DNA of 47,910 bases from Candidatus Melainabacteria bacterium. Its GTDB lineage: Bacteria; Cyanobacteriota; Vampirovibrionia; 2-02-FULL-35-15. A program made the translations under genes and the position numbers. Numbering within the stretch: position 1 is the first letter of the stretch; every line of letters begins with the position of its first letter. Of this stretch, positions 26,354-36,108 are shown in pieces. Location of the stretch: positions 1 through 47,910 of the forward strand of contig JAHFBE010000006.1 of the NCBI GenBank assembly GCA_023250205.1, written 5' to 3'. The notes beneath the pieces were generated by a model that searched no databases, had not been told where the DNA came from, and worked only from the letters and a program-made list of their open reading frames with translations.

Positions 26354-26674
26354 TTAGAAAATACCTAATTGATCCTTTGCTTCTTCACTTGCCATTGTTT
26401 TTGGATCCCATTTTGGAGTCCAAATAAGCTTTACTTCTGCATCTTCAACACCAGGTAAAGCTGCCGCTTTTGTATGAACTGCTGCCATAAGCTGTGGTCC
26501 AACAGGACAACCAGGACTTGTTAATGTCATCTCCACAAGAATTTTTTTACCTTCATTTTGGAAATCAACATTATAAATTAATCCAAGATCAACAATACTA
26601 ATACTTAGTTCTGGATCTTGGATTGGTTTAAGCGCTTCCATTACTTGTTCTTTTGTATATTTAATTGTTTCCAT
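26354..26674 (-). CDS. sufT: SufT-like MIP18/DUF59 Fe-S assembly factor
   Basis: At 106 residues it is a whole MIP18 domain, helping Fe-S cluster maturation or delivery. Family marks are ALKPIQDPELSISIVDLGLI near the start and the reactive-cysteine loop TLTSPGCPVGPQL. A strong AAGGAG ribosome site precedes the ATG. It follows sufU after a 56-base gap that contains a GC-rich hairpin, so its level may be set separately from sufU. Position at the end of a suf operon is usual for SufT. Confidence 0.9.
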   Translation of the reverse strand: METIKYTKEQVMEALKPIQDPELSISIVDLGLIYNVDFQNEGKKILVEMTLTSPGCPVGPQLMAAVHTKAAALPGVEDAEVKLIWTPKWDPKTMASEEAKDQLGIF

Positions 26675-26730: not shown

Positions 26731-27210
26731 TTATGAAATTTCCACATGTTCATGACCAATCAAAGCTTCTTCAAAAGTAGTCCACGGCAACAATGCACAT
26801 TTAATTCTTACTGGAAATTTTTTCACACCTTCCAAAGCTTCCAGATCTCCTAAATCAATTTTAGAATCAGTCTCTTTGTCATGCATTATATTTTTCAAAC
26901 AATTAGAAATATTTTTCGCCTCATCAATTGTTTTTCCTTTCAACATGTCTGCAAGGATAGATCCAGAAGCTACACTTATAGAACAGCCATGACCTTCAAT
27001 ATGAACTTTACTAATTTTATTATCTTTCAACTGAAGACTTAATTTAACTTCATCACCACATAATGGATTCATACCTTCAGCACAAAAATCAACTTTATCC
27101 AAAGGCTCCCTACCACAAGGTTTTCTATAATGCTCAAGGATTATCTCCTTATAGAGTTCATCTAATTGGGGGAGTGATCGACTTTGATGTTTTTCTTTCA
27201 TTTGGATCAT
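26731..27210 (-). CDS. sufU: SufU Fe-S scaffold / sulfur-transfer protein
   Basis: Zinc-bound partner that accepts persulfide sulfur from SufS. The ligands Cys-Asp, Cys and Cys are all seen: NPLCGDEV, GHGCSISVASGS and RIKCALLPW. The SufU-type insertion before the last cysteine is present, which separates it from IscU. The ATG overlaps the sufS stop by 4 bases (ATGA), indicating coupled translation; a second ATG 9 bases later (MKEKHQ) is an alternative start. 159 residues. Confidence 0.93.
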   Translation of the reverse strand: MIQMKEKHQSRSLPQLDELYKEIILEHYRKPCGREPLDKVDFCAEGMNPLCGDEVKLSLQLKDNKISKVHIEGHGCSISVASGSILADMLKGKTIDEAKNISNCLKNIMHDKETDSKIDLGDLEALEGVKKFPVRIKCALLPWTTFEEALIGHEHVEIS

Positions 27211-28481
27211 TTAGAAATTCGTTCTCCAACCTTTTCTTTTAATTCTTTACAAGCTCCAAGTTCAAAATAATCAAATGCTTTTTGCAAAGCCCCTATGAAA
27301 ACATCAATTTCATCTTTGGTATTGTAGAAATAAAGACTTGCTCTTGAAGTAGCTGAAACTCCCAATTTTTTCATTAATGGTTGAGCACAATGATGCCCAG
27401 CACGAATTGCAATACCTTCCTGATCAACAATTGTAGCTATATCATGTGGATGAACAACAGGATTAGCAAACGTAATAATACCTGCATGCTTATTAACATC
27501 AGCCGGTGCATAGATCTTAAGAAAGTCAAATTTACGAAGTTTCGTTAAAGCATACTGAGTAAGTTCAATTTCATGTTTGTAGATAGAATCAAGTCCGATT
27601 TTCTGAATATAGTCAAGAGCAACACCAAATGCAATAACATCAGCAATGTTTGGAGTCCCTGCCTCAAACTTCCAGGGAACATCATTTGTCGTAAAGTCTT
27701 CAAATGTAACTTTCCTAATCATTTCACCACCACCTAAAAATGGCGACATTTTTTCAAATAACTCTTTTTTTCCTACAAGCAAACCAACTCCTGTAGGTCC
27801 ACACATTTTATGTGATGAAAAGGCGAGAAAATCACAGCCTAAATCAGAAAAATCTATTTTCATATGAGGAGCACTCTGAGCAGCATCTACAATCAATATA
27901 GAACCATTGGTTTTTGCAAGTTTTGCAATTTTTTTAATGTCATTAACAGTACCTAAAACATTTGATTTATGCGTTATTGAAATGACTTTTGTTTTTTTAG
28001 TGATTAACTTTTCTAACTTTTCATAATCCAGCTCATATTGATCAGTAATCGGGGCAAACTTAATATTCACTTTTTTTCTATTTCTCAACAAATACCATGG
28101 GACAATATTTGAATGATGTTCCATTTCCGTTAAAAGGATTTCATCACCTTCTGAGAAAGACTCACCCAAAGAATAAGCCAATAGATTGATTGATTCTGTT
28201 GTATTTCTAGTAAAAACAATCTCAGAATTAGAATCACAGGAAACATATTTTTTTACTTTTTCGCGAACATTTTCATAAGCTGCAGTAGCTTCCTCTGCAA
28301 GCTTATGAACCCCACGGTGTATATTTGCATTATATGTTTCATAATATTGAACAATTGCATCAATTACTATTTTTGGTTTTTGAGTAGTTGCAGCATTGTC
28401 TAAATAAATAAGTTGCTTATCTCCCCAAATCTTACGTTCTAAAATCGGAAAATCTTTTCTAATTTTATTTACATCAAACAT
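27207..28481 (-). CDS. sufS: Cysteine desulfurase SufS
   Basis: PLP enzyme of the group II type that removes sulfur from cysteine and hands it to SufU. The sequence has the start IYLDNAATTQKP, NIHRGVHKLAEEAT, the PLP lysine in FSSHKMCGPTGVG, and the catalytic cysteine in IRAGHHCAQPLM. The length of 424 residues is normal for SufS. It lies 3 bases after the Rieske gene and overlaps sufU. Confidence 0.96.
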   Translation of the reverse strand: MFDVNKIRKDFPILERKIWGDKQLIYLDNAATTQKPKIVIDAIVQYYETYNANIHRGVHKLAEEATAAYENVREKVKKYVSCDSNSEIVFTRNTTESINLLAYSLGESFSEGDEILLTEMEHHSNIVPWYLLRNRKKVNIKFAPITDQYELDYEKLEKLITKKTKVISITHKSNVLGTVNDIKKIAKLAKTNGSILIVDAAQSAPHMKIDFSDLGCDFLAFSSHKMCGPTGVGLLVGKKELFEKMSPFLGGGEMIRKVTFEDFTTNDVPWKFEAGTPNIADVIAFGVALDYIQKIGLDSIYKHEIELTQYALTKLRKFDFLKIYAPADVNKHAGIITFANPVVHPHDIATIVDQEGIAIRAGHHCAQPLMKKLGVSATSRASLYFYNTKDEIDVFIGALQKAFDYFELGACKELKEKVGERISK

Positions 28482-28484
28482 TAG

Positions 28485-28805
28485 TTATTCATCCAATAAT
28501 ATTTCAAGTTCATTCCCGGAAACGTTAATTTTATAAGATTTAATAGGAGCAATTGCTGGCATTCTTGTAGCCTTTCCAGTTTTTACATCAAATCTGGCTC
28601 CGTGTCTTGGACATTCCAGTTGACAGTTCTCAACCATACTACTTTTACCAGAGACAAGTACACCATCATCATGAGAACAAACATCTTCTACTGCAAAATA
28701 TTCACCATCAACATTACAGACTACTATTTTTAAATCCCCTAACTGAAGTGATTTTGCTTCTCCAGGATCAATATCTGTTTTCATTATTTTTGTTTGCATT
28801 ATCAT
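28485..28805 (-). CDS. Rieske-type [2Fe-2S] ferredoxin in the suf operon
   Basis: A 106-residue single-domain Rieske protein. The cluster ligands are in CSHDDGVL and CPRHGARFDV (CxH...CxxH), so both Cys/His pairs are intact. There is no membrane anchor, so it is a soluble dioxygenase-ferredoxin type. It is packed between sufD and sufS with 3-base gaps on each side, which puts it firmly in the operon. Similar Rieske genes occur in suf operons of other phyla; whether it donates electrons during assembly is not known to me. Two start codons lie 6 bases apart (MIMQTK). Confidence 0.9.
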   Translation of the reverse strand: MIMQTKIMKTDIDPGEAKSLQLGDLKIVVCNVDGEYFAVEDVCSHDDGVLVSGKSSMVENCQLECPRHGARFDVKTGKATRMPAIAPIKSYKINVSGNELEILLDE

Positions 28806-28808
28806 TTT

Positions 28809-29990
28809 TTATACAACACCAAGTTTTTTCTTTATTCTCAAGGATACTTCTTCATTTAAAGCTTTATCAGGAATCTTAGATAATGTAGGCTCCAGAAATC
28901 CTTCTATAATAATCTGTTCAGCTTCACCTTGTTCTAAGCCACGAGTCATTAAATAATAAAGTTGATCTTTATCAATCTGCCCAACTGTTACTCCATGATT
29001 ACATCTGGTTACATCATTTGTAAGAATCTCCAGCTCAGGGATTGATTCTGCTTTAGCATCAGCAGACAAAAGTAAATTTCTATTTTCTTGATGAGCATCA
29101 GATTTTATAGCTTCATGAGATATTTTCAAATTTCCTGTATATGCAGAACGAGCTTTACCTTTAAGAGCAACTCTAAAATTTAAGTCTGACTTTGTATAAG
29201 GAGCATTATGTTCAACTGTTGTATGGTGATCAAATTTTTGATTATTATCTCCAAGAACTATTCCATAAGTAGTAACTTGTGCATGAGATTTTGAGAGATT
29301 AGCGCCCAAATCAACTTTTGAAATCTTCCCTCCTAATGCAATAAAAACATTTGTAAGCTCTGATTTTTCTTCAAGCTTGGCTCTTTGAAAATTATGACTA
29401 GTCACCTCTTTTGAATATAATTGAATATTTGCATAGTTTAATTTAGAATTTTTATCTAGGAATATTTCAGAAACAAGATTGATTAATAGGGGAGTTTTAT
29501 TTTCAGCAACAATTTCATCAATTAAATTAATAGAAGAACCTTCTTCAAGCACAATGAGATTTCTAACAGCACAAAAATCACTTACCCCATCAGAAGATAA
29601 TTTAACAGTAATGGGTTCTTCAACTTTTTGATTTTTCTTCAAACAAAGGAAGTAGCCGCTTGACCATATTGATTCGTTTAAAAGAGCAAGCCTGTTTGGG
29701 TAACTCTCAGTGTGTTTTCCAAAGTATTTTAAAATCAGTTCTTTATATTTTTCATTCTTATATGCTTCTGAAAGCTCCATTATTACAACATTATTGAGGT
29801 TTCCAGAAACAGATAGTTTTAATTTCCCAGATGAACAAACTGGAAGATTTTTTAGATCATATTCAAAACATTCAGGATCAGAATATTTCCATAAGTGTGA
29901 GACTTTATCAGGAATTGGACAGTTTTCATAGGCAGTTTTTGCCTGTCTTTTTTTTTCTTCTAACCAATTGTCAACTAAAACTTCTGTCAT
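28809..29990 (-). CDS. sufD: SufD subunit of the SufBCD scaffold
   Basis: Beta-helix partner of SufB in the SufBC2D complex. The C-terminal half has the family run KISHEAIKSDAHQENRNLLLS, then AESIPELEILTNDVTRCNHG and LMTRGLEQGEAEQIIIEGFLEP. The length of 393 residues is typical. An AAGGT ribosome site precedes the ATG. It lies 23 bases after sufB. Confidence 0.94.
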   Translation of the reverse strand: MTEVLVDNWLEEKKRQAKTAYENCPIPDKVSHLWKYSDPECFEYDLKNLPVCSSGKLKLSVSGNLNNVVIMELSEAYKNEKYKELILKYFGKHTESYPNRLALLNESIWSSGYFLCLKKNQKVEEPITVKLSSDGVSDFCAVRNLIVLEEGSSINLIDEIVAENKTPLLINLVSEIFLDKNSKLNYANIQLYSKEVTSHNFQRAKLEEKSELTNVFIALGGKISKVDLGANLSKSHAQVTTYGIVLGDNNQKFDHHTTVEHNAPYTKSDLNFRVALKGKARSAYTGNLKISHEAIKSDAHQENRNLLLSADAKAESIPELEILTNDVTRCNHGVTVGQIDKDQLYYLMTRGLEQGEAEQIIIEGFLEPTLSKIPDKALNEEVSLRIKKKLGVV

Positions 29991-30013: not shown

Positions 30014-31417
30014 TTAACCGACTGCTCCTTCCATTTCAAGCTCAATTAATCGATTAAGCTCTACAGCATATTCCATAGGAAGCTCTTTTACAAATGGTTC
30101 CATGAAACCATTAACAATCATAAGCTTTGCCTGCTCTTCAGAAAGACCACGACTCATTAAATAAAACAACTTTTCATCCTCAATTTTACTAACCGTAGCT
30201 TCATGCTCTATCTGAACACCTTTTTCATCTATTTCCATAGTCGGATAAGTGTCTGATCTGGATTTTTCATCTAACATTAGTGCATCACACTTAACTGTAG
30301 ATTTAACATTAAAAGCCCCTTTATGAACTTTAAGTAAACCTCTATAAGTTGCTCTACCACCATTTCTTGAAATTGATTTTGAAGTAATAACAGAAGTAGT
30401 ATTTGGAGCAGCGTGAACAATTTTTGCACCTGCATCCTGATGTTGATCAGAACCACTTGCAAGTGCTACAGAAACAACTTCTCCATGTGCTCTTTCACCA
30501 ACTAAATAAATAGAAGGGTATTTCATTGTAAGTTTAGAGCCCATATTTCCATCAAGCCACTCAACAACTGCACCTTCATGGGCAACTGCTCGTTTAGTTA
30601 CCAGGTTATAAACATTTTTAGACCAATTTTGAATAGTGGTATATCGAATCTTTGCATTTTTAAGTGCAATAAGCTCAACTACAGCTGAATGCAACGAATC
30701 TGAGCTATAAGTAGGAGCTGTACAACCTTCAATATAGTGAACAGAGCTACCTTCATCAGCAATAATTAAAGTTCTTTCAAACTGTCCCATATTTTCAGTA
30801 TTAATTCTGAAATATGCCTGAAGTGGAATTTCTACATTTGTATTTGGTGGAACATAAATGAAAGATCCACCAGACCATACTGCACTATTTAATGCTGCAA
30901 ATTTATTGTCTTCAGAAGGAATAATTGTAGCAAAGTATTTTTTTACAATCTCTGGATGTTCACGTAATCCTGAGTCCATATCCAGAAACAGTACACCGAG
31001 TTTTTTCAAATCTTCTCTTAGGGAATGGTAAACCACTTCAGATTCATATTGAGCTGAAACACCTGCTAAGAATTTTCTTTCTGCTTCAGGTATACCAAGT
31101 CTGTCAAAAGTATTTTTAATTTCCTTCGGGACATCTTCCCAGTTTTTTTCTTGTTTTTCACTGGATTTCACATAGTAAAAAATATTTTCAAAATCAATTT
31201 CAGCAAGAAGCCCTGTATTCCCCCATTTAGGCATTGGTTTTTTATAAAATATTTCAAGAGCCTTTAGACGAAACTCAGTCATCCACTTAGGTTCATTCTT
31301 CATCTTTGAAATACTAAGAACAATCTCTTTAGTAAGTCCTCTGGTAGATTTAAAAGCATAATTTTCTTCCGAATCATGGAAACCATACTGATATTCATTA
31401 TTTAGTTCAAGAGCCAT
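30014..31417 (-). CDS. sufB: SufB subunit of the SufBCD scaffold
   Basis: Core scaffold on which Fe-S clusters are built. Family sequence includes [48 protein letters not shown] and [15 protein letters not shown], ending [20 protein letters not shown] start it at the ATG giving MALELNNEY, with AAGGTGG five bases upstream. A GTG that would add three residues lies inside that ribosome site and is unlikely. 467 residues; 10 bases after sufC. Confidence 0.96.
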
Positions 31418-31427
31418 ATTAACCACC

Positions 31428-32189
31428 TTAAGCTTTAATAGCTTCTTTCCCTGTCAACCAGTCATACCCCTTCTTCTCTAATTCCAAAGCCAATTCCGGA
31501 CCACCAGATTCAACAATATTTCCATCAATAAAAACATGGACTTTATCTGGCTTTATATAATCAAGGATTCTTTGATAATGGGTTACTAGCAAAATAGCAA
31601 CTAAAGGATTTTTTTGTTTATATTTATTTATACTTTCAGCTACTAGCTTAAGAGAGTCAATATCCAGTCCAGAGTCAGGTTCATCTAAAATAGCTAATCT
31701 GGGTTCAAGCATTGCCATTTGTAGAATTTCCATTCTCTTTTTTTCGCCACCAGAGAATCCATCATTCACATAGCGAGTAGCAAAAGCATGCTCAATTTCA
31801 AGATCATCCATCTTTTCATAAAGAAGTTTTCTGAAATCCCTAGGAGAAACAGAGTCACCTTTTAATGCTTTATTTGCCTGTCTTAAAAAATTTGCAACTG
31901 TAACTCCAGGAATACTTAACGGATATTGAAATCCTAAAAACAAACCTAGTTTTGCACGATCGTTTGGCTTTAAATCATTGATAGCCTTTTTATCAAAAGA
32001 AATTTGTCCGCTTGAGATTTTATAAGCAGGATGTCCCATTAACGTATTTGAAAACGTACTTTTACCAGAACCATTCCTTCCCATTACTGCATGGACTTCA
32101 CCAGAATTAATTTGTAAGTTAAGACCATGTAAAATTTCCTTTTCATCAATTTTTACATATAAATTTTCAATTTTTAATAACTCAGTCAT
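31428..32189 (-). CDS. sufC: SufC ATPase of the SufBCD scaffold
   Basis: ABC-type ATPase, soluble, that drives conformational change in SufB-SufD. Walker A is [10 protein letters not shown], the signature is GFSGGEKKR, Walker B is [12 protein letters not shown], and the H-loop is [11 protein letters not shown] use the ATG giving [10 protein letters not shown] with GGAGAAGGA upstream (253 residues). A longer frame with 12 more residues lacks support. It is the first gene of the suf operon and has a promoter and putative operator about 50 bases upstream. Confidence 0.95.
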
Positions 32190-32243
32190 TTTTATTATTC
32201 CTTCTCCAAGTATTTCTAAAATCACCTTTAAAACTTCTCTATT

Positions 32244-32272
32244 ATTATACTTGACAATTTTATCAAGATTAA
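32244..32272 (-). promoter_or_regulatory. Promoter of the suf operon
   Basis: On the minus strand a perfect TATAAT (32249 to 32244) is preceded by a 17-base spacer and a weak -35 (TTAATC). A transcript from here would have a leader of about 48 bases before sufC. The spacer is almost wholly taken up by the TTGAC-N7-TCAAG motif, so a protein bound there would control access. Confidence 0.6.
32250..32267. promoter_or_regulatory. Putative Rrf2 operator, suf copy
   Basis: The 18-base dyad CTTGA-N8-TCAAG lies directly against the -10 of suf. A second copy with the same spacing (TTGAC-N7-TCAAG) lies beside the Rrf2 gene. Symmetry, position and repetition are seen; binding by the Rrf2 protein is inferred. 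Confidence 0.55.
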
Positions 32273-32309
32273 AGAACTTTTAATTTTTAATTTAAGTTTT
32301 CACCTCCAT

Positions 32310-32774
32310 TTAAATAGTTAATGCTAATTCTTTTTTTAAGTATTTTGTTAAAACATCTTCTTTTGATAAAAGATCAGAGAGTGAAACACGTTTTAACAAA
32401 GTAGAAAGTATCTGAGAAATTGACATCCATACAGATCTGATTGAGCAACAATTAATATGAATACATTTTAAATCATTTCCTGGAAACTGCTGACAGGATT
32501 CACTTTCAAATAACTCTCCACTTAGAGATCTAACAACTTCATCAAGATAAATTTTTTCAGGAGGCCTCGTTAACTTGTAACCACCTCTTTTACCACGAAC
32601 ACTTTCAACTAAATTTGCCTGACGAAGTGTAGTTAAAATTTTTGCAGCATAGTCTGTCGTAATGTGTTCAGATTTTGCTATATCTTCTAACGAAGCTAGC
32701 TCACCCTTTAATGTAAGGCTTGCAACTTGTAACAAGCACCTTACCCCATACTCTTCTTGTGCAGTGATTTTCAT
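32310..32774 (-). CDS. Rrf2 family Fe-S responsive regulator (IscR/SufR-like role)
   Basis: It has 154 residues. The N-terminal winged helix starts MKITAQEEYGVRCLLQVA and has the recognition region ITTDYAAKILTTLRQANLV followed by the wing GKRGGYKL. The cluster-type cysteines are C94, C104, C109 and C110 (ESESC...LKCIHINCC), spaced differently from the three cysteines of E. coli IscR. It lies upstream of sufC in the same direction and is divergent from an A-type carrier, the usual setting for a repressor of Fe-S assembly. It probably senses cluster status and controls suf and itself through the TTGAC-N7-TCAAG sites. Confidence 0.9.
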   Translation of the reverse strand: MKITAQEEYGVRCLLQVASLTLKGELASLEDIAKSEHITTDYAAKILTTLRQANLVESVRGKRGGYKLTRPPEKIYLDEVVRSLSGELFESESCQQFPGNDLKCIHINCCSIRSVWMSISQILSTLLKRVSLSDLLSKEDVLTKYLKKELALTI

Positions 32775-32808
32775 ATATTTTGCTCATCGCTAACCAATAG
32801 CTACCTTA

Positions 32809-32838
32809 ATTATACACAAATGTTGACTTTTTATTCAA
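32809..32838 (-). promoter_or_regulatory. Promoter of the Rrf2 regulator gene
   Basis: On the minus strand a perfect TATAAT (32814 to 32809) has TTGAAT as -35 (32838 to 32833) with an 18-base spacer. The -35 lies inside the putative operator, which suggests self-control. The expected leader is about 28 bases. Confidence 0.5.
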
Positions 32839-32839
32839 G
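32823..32839. promoter_or_regulatory. Putative Rrf2 operator, copy between regulator and A-type carrier
   Basis: TTGAC-N7-TCAAG, identical in half-sites and spacing to the suf copy, while the central bases differ. It overlaps the -35 of the Rrf2 gene and the expected -35 zone of the divergent carrier gene. Confidence 0.55.
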
Positions 32840-32854
32840 ATTTAACATTAAGGG

Positions 32855-32860
32855 TATAAT
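32855..32860 (+). promoter_or_regulatory. -10 element of the A-type carrier gene
   Basis: A perfect TATAAT lies 23 bases before the ATG. No good -35 is found at 16-18 bases; the candidate zone is covered by the putative operator. Transcription may depend on a bound factor. Confidence 0.45.
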
Positions 32861-32883: not shown

Positions 32884-33294
32884 ATGACAGTAACCATGGA
32901 AATTGTACAGCTTTCAGATTCTGCAAAAGAAGAATTAAAAAAGCTTATTACAAAAGAAACAGACAACCCTGATGGAGTGAGATTGAGTCTTTTAGCTGGT
33001 GGTTGTTCCGGGCTTTCATACCACCTACAGTTTGATAAATTAAGAGACAATGATTATGTCTATGATTACGATGGAATTAAAGTTTTTACAGATACAAAAA
33101 GCGCACTTTATTTAAGCGGTGTTCTTTTGGATTATCAAAGTGGGTTAACTGGAAGAGGATTTATATTTTCAAATCCAAATGCAAAAAAAACATGTGGCTG
33201 TGGAACCTCCTTTTCTGTGGGAGATAAAGAAGTTACCCTTGAATTTATTAGTGATAAAAAGCCAATAAACGTTTGCCCAAGTACTAAAGATTAA
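32884..33294 (+). CDS. A-type Fe-S carrier protein (IscA/ErpA/SufA family)
   Basis: Receives a nascent cluster and passes it to target proteins. The three ligand cysteines are C41 in GGCSGLSY and C104 and C106 in KTCGCGTSF, with the family strand SALYLSGVLLDYQ between them. It has 136 residues, with about 25 after the CGCG motif, longer than IscA. An AAGGA ribosome site sits 7 bases before the ATG; a later ATG (MEIVQLS) is possible. It is divergent from the Rrf2 regulator and shares a putative operator with it. Confidence 0.93.
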   Translation: MTVTMEIVQLSDSAKEELKKLITKETDNPDGVRLSLLAGGCSGLSYHLQFDKLRDNDYVYDYDGIKVFTDTKSALYLSGVLLDYQSGLTGRGFIFSNPNAKKTCGCGTSFSVGDKEVTLEFISDKKPINVCPSTKD

Positions 33295-35441: not shown

Positions 35442-35762
35442 TTACTTCGCTGCGATTTCTTTTACTAATTCTTGAAGTTCACCTGTCTTAAAAAGCTCTC
35501 TTGTAATATCACAACCACCTATAAATTTTCCATTCACATAAACTTGTGGGATAGTAGGCCAATTAGAGATTTTTTTTATTCCTTCTCTTAATTTATTATC
35601 AGCCAAAACATCTCTTGTTTCAAACGGTACATTTAAAAGCTGAAAGACCTCAACAACTGCCGCTGAAAAGCCACACTGAGGAGCATCCTTAGAGCCTTTC
35701 ATGTAAATTATTACTTTATTTGCCTTTATTTCATCTTCGATTTTTTTTATTATATCAGTCAT
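35442..35762 (-). CDS. Monothiol glutaredoxin, CGFS type
   Basis: It has 106 residues. The active site is PQCGFSAAVV with the glutathione/cluster lysine in IYMKGSKDAP, followed by WPTIPQVYVNGKFIGGCDI. This CGFS class (Grx4/GrxD) binds a shared [2Fe-2S] cluster with glutathione and works with BolA proteins; the bolA-type gene is 64 bases upstream. A GGAGG ribosome site is 8 bases before the ATG. The short 64-base gap suggests an operon with BolA and the MBL hydrolase. Confidence 0.95.
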   Translation of the reverse strand: MTDIIKKIEDEIKANKVIIYMKGSKDAPQCGFSAAVVEVFQLLNVPFETRDVLADNKLREGIKKISNWPTIPQVYVNGKFIGGCDITRELFKTGELQELVKEIAAK

Positions 35763-35826
35763 CTTTTTTCCTCCACCAGATTTGTTTTACTTTAAAAAGG
35801 GCACCCTATATTACCAACTAAAAGTA

Positions 35827-36108
35827 CTAAATAGCATGATCTACACCCCTACTGAAAGACTGCTTGTTTTTCTCCCATTTAGCAGGAGAATATGTCTTTA
35901 GGGTTAAAGCATGAATTTCGTTAGATTTCATCTCCTCAGAAAAAATATCATAAACAACTTTATGTTGTTCAACCAGTGTTTTACCTTCAAATTCCGAGGA
36001 GACTATTATAACTTGTATATGATCTCCACCTCTTAAATCAATAACCTCTACAAAAACAGGTTTCAATTTTTCTTTTATTTTCTCTTCAATTTTATTCAGC
36101 AATTGCAT
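35827..36108 (-). CDS. BolA family protein
   Basis: It has 93 residues. The family core is IHALTLKTYSPAKWEKN near the C-terminus, and an invariant histidine-containing segment (LVEQHKVVYDIF) precedes it. BolA proteins pair with CGFS glutaredoxins to carry or sense [2Fe-2S] clusters; the glutaredoxin gene is immediately downstream. It begins 8 bases after the MBL hydrolase gene. Confidence 0.93.
   Translation of the reverse strand: MQLLNKIEEKIKEKLKPVFVEVIDLRGGDHIQVIIVSSEFEGKTLVEQHKVVYDIFSEEMKSNEIHALTLKTYSPAKWEKNKQSFSRGVDHAI

Follow-up and report, generated by a model that had tools for sequence, protein, structure and literature searches.

Two inverted repeats of 24 bp lie on either side of a gene for an Rrf2-family regulator in the 47,910-bp stretch of Candidatus Melainabacteria DNA analysed here (contig JAHFBE010000006.1; hereafter the window), and with a probability of roughly 85% we read them as operators of the regulator encoded between them, a RisR/IscR-like Fe-S repressor that would exert negative feedback on the suf operon and on itself. 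Judging from sequence comparison, the repeats are very probably operators; binding at both sites, repression, the signal and the cluster with its type are what we infer beyond that.

In the proposed circuit the regulator would be a homodimer whose two winged helix-turn-helix domains each contact one ATASTTGA(C) half-site. The cluster-loaded dimer would obstruct RNA polymerase at the suf promoter, with its operator between the -35 and -10 elements, and at the regulator's own promoter, with its operator over the -35. When clusters are scarce the cluster would be lost and the dimer would leave the DNA, and this release would switch on suf and the regulator; the divergent iscA-like gene would probably be switched on with them. 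Such a negative feedback loop would resemble that of RisR, and that of E. coli IscR at type 1 sites.

SUF is a central Fe-S assembly system, and to our knowledge its control has barely been studied outside Proteobacteria, Actinobacteria and cyanobacteria. The authors who described RisR remarked that their group had until then had no investigated member (PMC9973013). An operator common to several mostly uncultured phyla would make the circuit predictable from sequence and checkable in cultured relatives.

The suf locus and its two dyads

The regulator gene is flanked on one side by a suf operon of the same orientation and on the other by a divergent gene for an A-type carrier. The genes are listed below.

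26354–26674, minus strand: SufT-like (SUF-associated) protein (TIGR02945, E = 8.8e-29, below the curated cut-off)
26731–27210, minus strand: sufU, scaffold/sulfur transfer protein (TIGR01994, E = 3.3e-45, over the cut-off)
27207–28481, minus strand: sufS, cysteine desulfurase (from the translation; named by reading)
28485–28805, minus strand: Rieske-type ferredoxin (matches dioxygenase ferredoxin families)
28809–29990, minus strand: sufD (from the translation and gene order; named by reading)
30014–31426, minus strand: sufB (from the translation; 74% identical to the SufB of G070)
31428–32189, minus strand: sufC, first gene of the suf operon (TIGR01978, E = 1.1e-101)
32310–32774, minus strand: Rrf2-family regulator of 154 aa (PF02082, E = 1.3e-30), with C94-x9-C104-x4-C109C110, Glu8 and Arg113
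32884–33294, plus strand: A-type Fe-S carrier, ErpA/IscA-like (PF01521; TIGR00049 over the cut-off), divergent from the regulator

On our reading of the sequence, sufC starts at the ATG before TELLKIENL and not at the GTG at 32225. The Rieske-type ferredoxin gene lies within the suf operon, with sufD on one side and sufS on the other. Beyond the divergent genes, a Grx4-type glutaredoxin gene and a BolA-like gene adjoin each other on the minus strand (window positions 35442–36108); glutaredoxin and BolA pairs are often linked to Fe-S trafficking, and no copy of the operator was found adjoining this one.

An earlier note on this DNA, made from the letters alone, had reported the dyad TTGAC-N7-TCAAG in the suf spacer and in the divergent gap. 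Both copies were recovered when the whole window was scanned, TTGACAATTTTATCAAG at 32251–32267 and TTGACTTTTTATTCAAG at 32823–32839, and they are its only exact matches (0.17 expected; two copies reached in 1 of 100 shuffles); the perfect TATAAT described beside the suf copy was likewise located, on the minus strand at 32249–32244. Once symmetry and flanks were allowed for, TTGAC/TCAAG turned out to be an asymmetric slice of a longer element, the 24-bp dyad AWTSTTGA-N8-TCAASAWT, of which both window copies are versions.

32247–32270, no strand: candidate operator 1, suf side, ATACTTGA-CAATTTTA-TCAAGATT, arms with an N8 centre; complete 24-mer ATACTTGACAATTTTATCAAGATT, 18-bp core CTTGACAATTTTATCAAG at 32250–32267
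32819–32842, no strand: candidate operator 2, in the gap between rrf2 and iscA, AATGTTGA-CTTTTTAT-TCAAGATT, 0 mismatches to the 24-bp pattern; complete 24-mer AATGTTGACTTTTTATTCAAGATT, 18-bp core at 32822–32839 with arms AATGTTGA-N8-TCAAGATT

With up to one mismatch allowed, the 24-bp pattern occurs in the window at operators 1 and 2 only (0.09 expected; two matches reached in none of 100 shuffles). Scans of whole genomes were pattern searches only. In the genome from which the window comes (G000; 2.08 Mb, 86.5% complete, with groundwater Candidatus Melainabacteria as its nearest named relatives), the two operators were the top two matches, and the single extra match, with one mismatch, fell within coding sequence. 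Shorter forms were less discriminating. Exact TTGAC-N7-TCAAG was found four times genome-wide, twice at the locus and twice within the coding sequences of rsmH and thrS, versus 12 matches for the reversed control pattern, and it was rejected as a genome-wide regulon marker, two of its four matches being in coding sequence. The symmetric 18-bp form STTGA-N8-TCAAS has eight copies in the genome, of which those outside genes are the two at the locus and one other; it is unspecific, since in most genomes scanned it was no more frequent than the control.

The genome scan that the earlier note had proposed did not refute the operator reading, as the long form is not scattered; the note's word 'regulon' was too strong, this locus being the only one found. 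We consider it highly improbable that the site governs a broad Fe-S or iron regulon. A one-mismatch 24-mer just before a peroxiredoxin gene in genome G005 (C20; L173 1054-1077) speaks for such a regulon and is possibly an extra target there, or else a chance match, but in the 86.5% complete genome of the window the 24-mer stands in no other promoter, and the extra matches examined were mostly within genes or not common to different genomes.

Probable operators and promoters across the family

At least one dyad was found in all 11 family genomes, whose regulators are 69–84% identical to that of the window, and both dyads, including one degenerate copy, in 10 of them; many of the relatives compared are metagenome-assembled genomes. 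Operator 2 aligned at the same place in 11/11 genomes and operator 1 in 10/11 (degenerate in G007), and in nearly every one the perfect 24-mer matches lie at this locus. When the gaps were aligned, the dyads and the promoter -10 elements were seen to be conserved amid drift in the central bases and in most of the other gap sequence. This agrees with the earlier proposal that the half-sites are selected and the centre is free, and the comparison with relatives went the same way, the site being present wherever a family genome has retained the regulator. The further proposal, that the dyads occupy the two places expected for an Rrf2 regulator of itself and of suf, draws support from their conserved position on the promoter elements listed here.

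32244–32249, minus strand: -10 of the suf promoter, TATAAT, directly abutting operator 1; GTATAAT against the dyad is kept in the family
32273–32268, minus strand: putative weak -35 of the suf promoter, TTTAAT, with an 18-bp spacer
32809–32838, minus strand: regulator promoter, TTGAAT - 18 bp - TATAAT, from a consensus scan; one arm of operator 2 coincides with its -35
32852–32860, plus strand: probable -10 of the iscA-like gene, GGGTATAAT, 12 bp past operator 2 and kept in most family genomes

Operator 1 occupies the space between the suf -10 and the putative weak -35, and on the suf side of the aligned family gaps the arm GTCAAG leads straight into TATAAT. The regulator's -10 (ATTATA on the plus strand) is invariant in 11/11 family genomes and lies 3–5 bp from the 24-mer, distances in this and the Omnitrophota alignment having been counted by hand.

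Two genomes depart from the usual arrangement. In G008 the suf-side site is gone and sufC starts about 17 bp after rrf2, so that suf could be read from the regulator's promoter. Both G008 and G002 keep operator 2 though no iscA-like gene was found adjoining the regulator, which points to autoregulation as the core role of this operator. The iscA -10 is altered to GAGCCTAAT in G008, which lacks iscA there.

For the iscA-like promoter no good -35 was seen, and the distance from operator 2 to its -10, by hand count, is 12–13 bp in seven genomes, 24 bp in three and 15 bp in one. A regulator that represses suf and itself could on this evidence activate the iscA-like gene, just as apo-IscR is an activator at E. 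coli suf: GGGTATAAT is conserved without a good -35, and in 10/11 genomes the distances (12–13 versus 24 bp) are about one helical turn apart. Such activation seems unlikely to us, as the distances represent few independent changes, one genome is off phase, and at 12–13 bp the operator overlaps the iscA -35 region, a placement that repression fits equally.

The regulator and its known counterparts

Membership of the Rrf2 superfamily is clear from profile scores (PF02082, 106.7 bits, cut-off 30; TIGR00738, 105.8 bits, cut-off 73.3). The protein scored below the equivalog cut-offs for IscR (TIGR02010, 76.4 versus 207.55 bits; PRK10857, 60 versus 275) and for NsrR (60.7 versus 182 bits). Its predicted fold matches the structures of CymR, RsrR, IscR and NsrR (structure model with a mean pLDDT of 79.8); the cluster loop, residues 98–112, is below pLDDT 50, hence the model carries no information on cluster geometry. 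In the tree the related regulators form one supported clade (100/98), apart from the second Rrf2 protein of the genome and from family f2.

In an alignment of 36 regulators C94, C104, C110, E7 and E8 are invariant, giving a cysteine spacing of C-x9-C-x5-C. Named relatives were fetched by peptides that included MKITAQEE, and conservation of that stretch is therefore biased by selection; E7 and E8 are likewise present in families f4 and f6, which belong to the same class and were found without this filter. The position of the E. coli ligand His107 is Arg in nearly all aligned regulators (Arg113 in the window protein). The E. coli IscR sequence was used only for aligning recognition-helix columns.

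RsrR has a Glu at position 8, and its ligands are reportedly Cys, Glu and His. NsrR and RsrR thus share with the window regulator both the Rrf2 fold and an acidic residue at position 8, whereas their operators differ (23 bp in ScNsrR; 11-3-11 in RsrR), as do their target genes and, in ScNsrR (C93, C99, C105), the cysteine spacing. E8 aligns with NsrR Asp8, a ligand of that protein's [4Fe-4S] cluster (PMC5411485), and ligation by three cysteines and Glu8 is therefore plausible; by this analogy the cluster is plausibly [4Fe-4S], with Glu8 as a possible fourth ligand.

The earlier note had offered the cysteine spacing as new. It is in fact that of RisR of Myxococcus xanthus, a member of Rrf2 group IS6 with C92, C102 and C108 (PMC9973013), and both regulators are linked to control of suf, in the window by prediction. 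The palindrome footprinted for RisR, TtGAC...GTCC with AT-rich flanks, lies over the -35/-10 (PMC9973013), and here the half-site is similar and the promoter placement the same; in particular, operator 1 is placed between the weak -35 and the -10 of suf, where the RisR footprint at the M. xanthus suf promoter also falls. The RisR core is GAC-N7-GTC, as far as RisR is known by its description in PMC9973013, whereas that of the window sites, GAC-N6-GTC or TTGA-N8-TCAA, is 1 bp shorter. RisR also controls isc (PMC9973013), whereas the targets found here are limited to the suf locus and the regulator gene. Cyanobacteria and Acidobacteria are represented in group IS6, as is Armatimonadota by a member that has a SUF cluster, and Chthonomonas calidirosea has been placed there (PMC9973013); one suf-linked clade of our tree contains a Chthonomonadia sequence.

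The motif had also been called unlike IscR sites, and this did not stand. The E. coli type 1 consensus is ATASYYGACTRWWWYAGTCRRSTAT (PMC3899308), and its half-site ATASYYGAC fits ATASTTGAC, present as ATACTTGAC at 32247–32255; only the spacing differs, the type 1 dyad being 25 bp long (YYGA-N9-TCRR) and both window sites 24 bp (TTGA-N8-TCAA), with a centre 1 bp shorter. E. coli IscR also shares with the window regulator its fold, autoregulation and an operator over promoter elements, the last two as predicted here; it differs in its ligands, with C-x5-C-x5-C and His107 three residues after the last Cys, versus C-x9-C-x5-C and Arg at the His place. SufR of cyanobacteria and mycobacteria represses suf via an Fe-S cluster and has an ArsR-like HTH (PMC9973013); it belongs to a different protein family, the window protein being Rrf2 by profile and predicted fold.

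Going by these comparisons, the circuit would work like control by IscR at type 1 sites and by RisR, through a protein that falls outside the IscR family and carries the RisR cysteines, and at sites that depart from the RisR spacing. No description of the 24-bp form was found in the open-access literature, subscription journals and RegPrecise being outside the scope of the search. The novelty lies in the 24-bp spacing variant and in how widely it occurs across phyla. The 1-bp difference from IscR and RisR sites offers a clear entry point for asking how Rrf2 dimers gauge distance along DNA.

The 24-bp site in other lineages and phyla

A weight matrix built from the family sites only was applied to the 250 bp preceding each related regulator and compared with dinucleotide shuffles at the 1% level. 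Matches were obtained in sister family f4 (8/8), Omnitrophota (16/17), Planctomycetota (10/12), Acidobacteriota (6/6) and Armatimonadota (3/5), in all 43 of 48 regulators versus about 0.5 expected from shuffle nulls that count related sequences as independent. A simple TTGA-N9-TCAA signal noted in the sister family was dropped once the matrix had found the 24-bp N8 form there. When the arms alone were searched with the centre varied, N6 was found in 41/48, N5 in 7/48 and N7, the RisR spacing, in 8/48, and the coding control at N6 gave 0.

Within the same 250 bp the matrix detected no site in f6, a sister lineage of the same class that has the regulator (0/4), nor at the one Deltaproteobacteria regulator (0/1). 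The f6 result, the weak suf -35, and the iscA-like promoter with its variable -10 distance from operator 2 and no good -35 count against feedback by the neighbouring regulator.

The Omnitrophota sites bear on a simpler explanation, that the dyads are mere promoter hexamers, TTGAC serving as a -35 and the matching arm arising from chance or background. The arms TTGAAT/TTGACA do act as the -35 of the regulator promoter, and the ATACTTGAC arm of Omnitrophota, which is located at -35 on the coding strand, reads as one too. At the window's suf promoter, however, this arm is on the opposite strand, the wrong one for a -35, and against the -10; its contrary orientation and placement in the two settings indicate that the half-site is more than a promoter hexamer. 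With both arms and the exact N8 spacing kept, and none in the coding control, the hexamer explanation is hardly credible.

In Bacteroidota and Calditrichota the matrix gave no match in 250 bp upstream of rrf2 (0/32), a result that we attribute to gene order, as the regulator lies behind the suf genes in those examined; it does so in two Armatimonadota as well. Ahead of sufB, AATCTTGACGTTTAGGTCAAGATT and ATTCTTGACTTTTTTGTCCAGAAT are found in Armatimonadota and AATCTTGACTTTTTTGTACAAATG in Calditrichota; most of the Bacteroidota examined have dyads like TTTATAC-N6-GTATAAA there, one of them with N7, and this Bacteroidota form was identified by eye. By its form the Bacteroidota dyad is a diverged version of the 24-bp site. 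Bacteroidota regulators have Pro at the place of a wing Arg found in most others, and half-site and wing may have changed together.

Tentatively, and with slightly more doubt than conviction, we propose that the 24-bp operator ATASTTGAC-N6-GTC-like and its Rrf2 repressor with three cysteines and Glu8 constitute an ancient feedback switch, specific to SUF, that at least seven phyla have inherited (Cyanobacteriota, through Vampirovibrionia, Omnitrophota, Planctomycetota, Acidobacteriota, Armatimonadota, Calditrichota and Bacteroidota), with a pitch distinct from that of the 25-bp IscR/RisR sites.

The same distribution makes it very unlikely that the dyad is bound by some regulator other than the neighbouring Rrf2 protein, whose binding is itself a prediction. 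Another Rrf2 protein is indeed encoded in the genome, ahead of an iscS-like gene, but this one falls elsewhere in the tree and lacks the cluster cysteines, whereas the site accompanies the neighbouring regulator's family across phyla, either within the regulator's promoter or upstream of sufB in operons that end with the regulator, and the half-site is similar to that of IscR and of RisR.

The second Rrf2 gene (G000:C74:76829-77206) is found directly before the iscS-like cysteine desulfurase gene and after flagellar-export-like genes, and its product is likely to belong to a separate CymR/IscR-like circuit.
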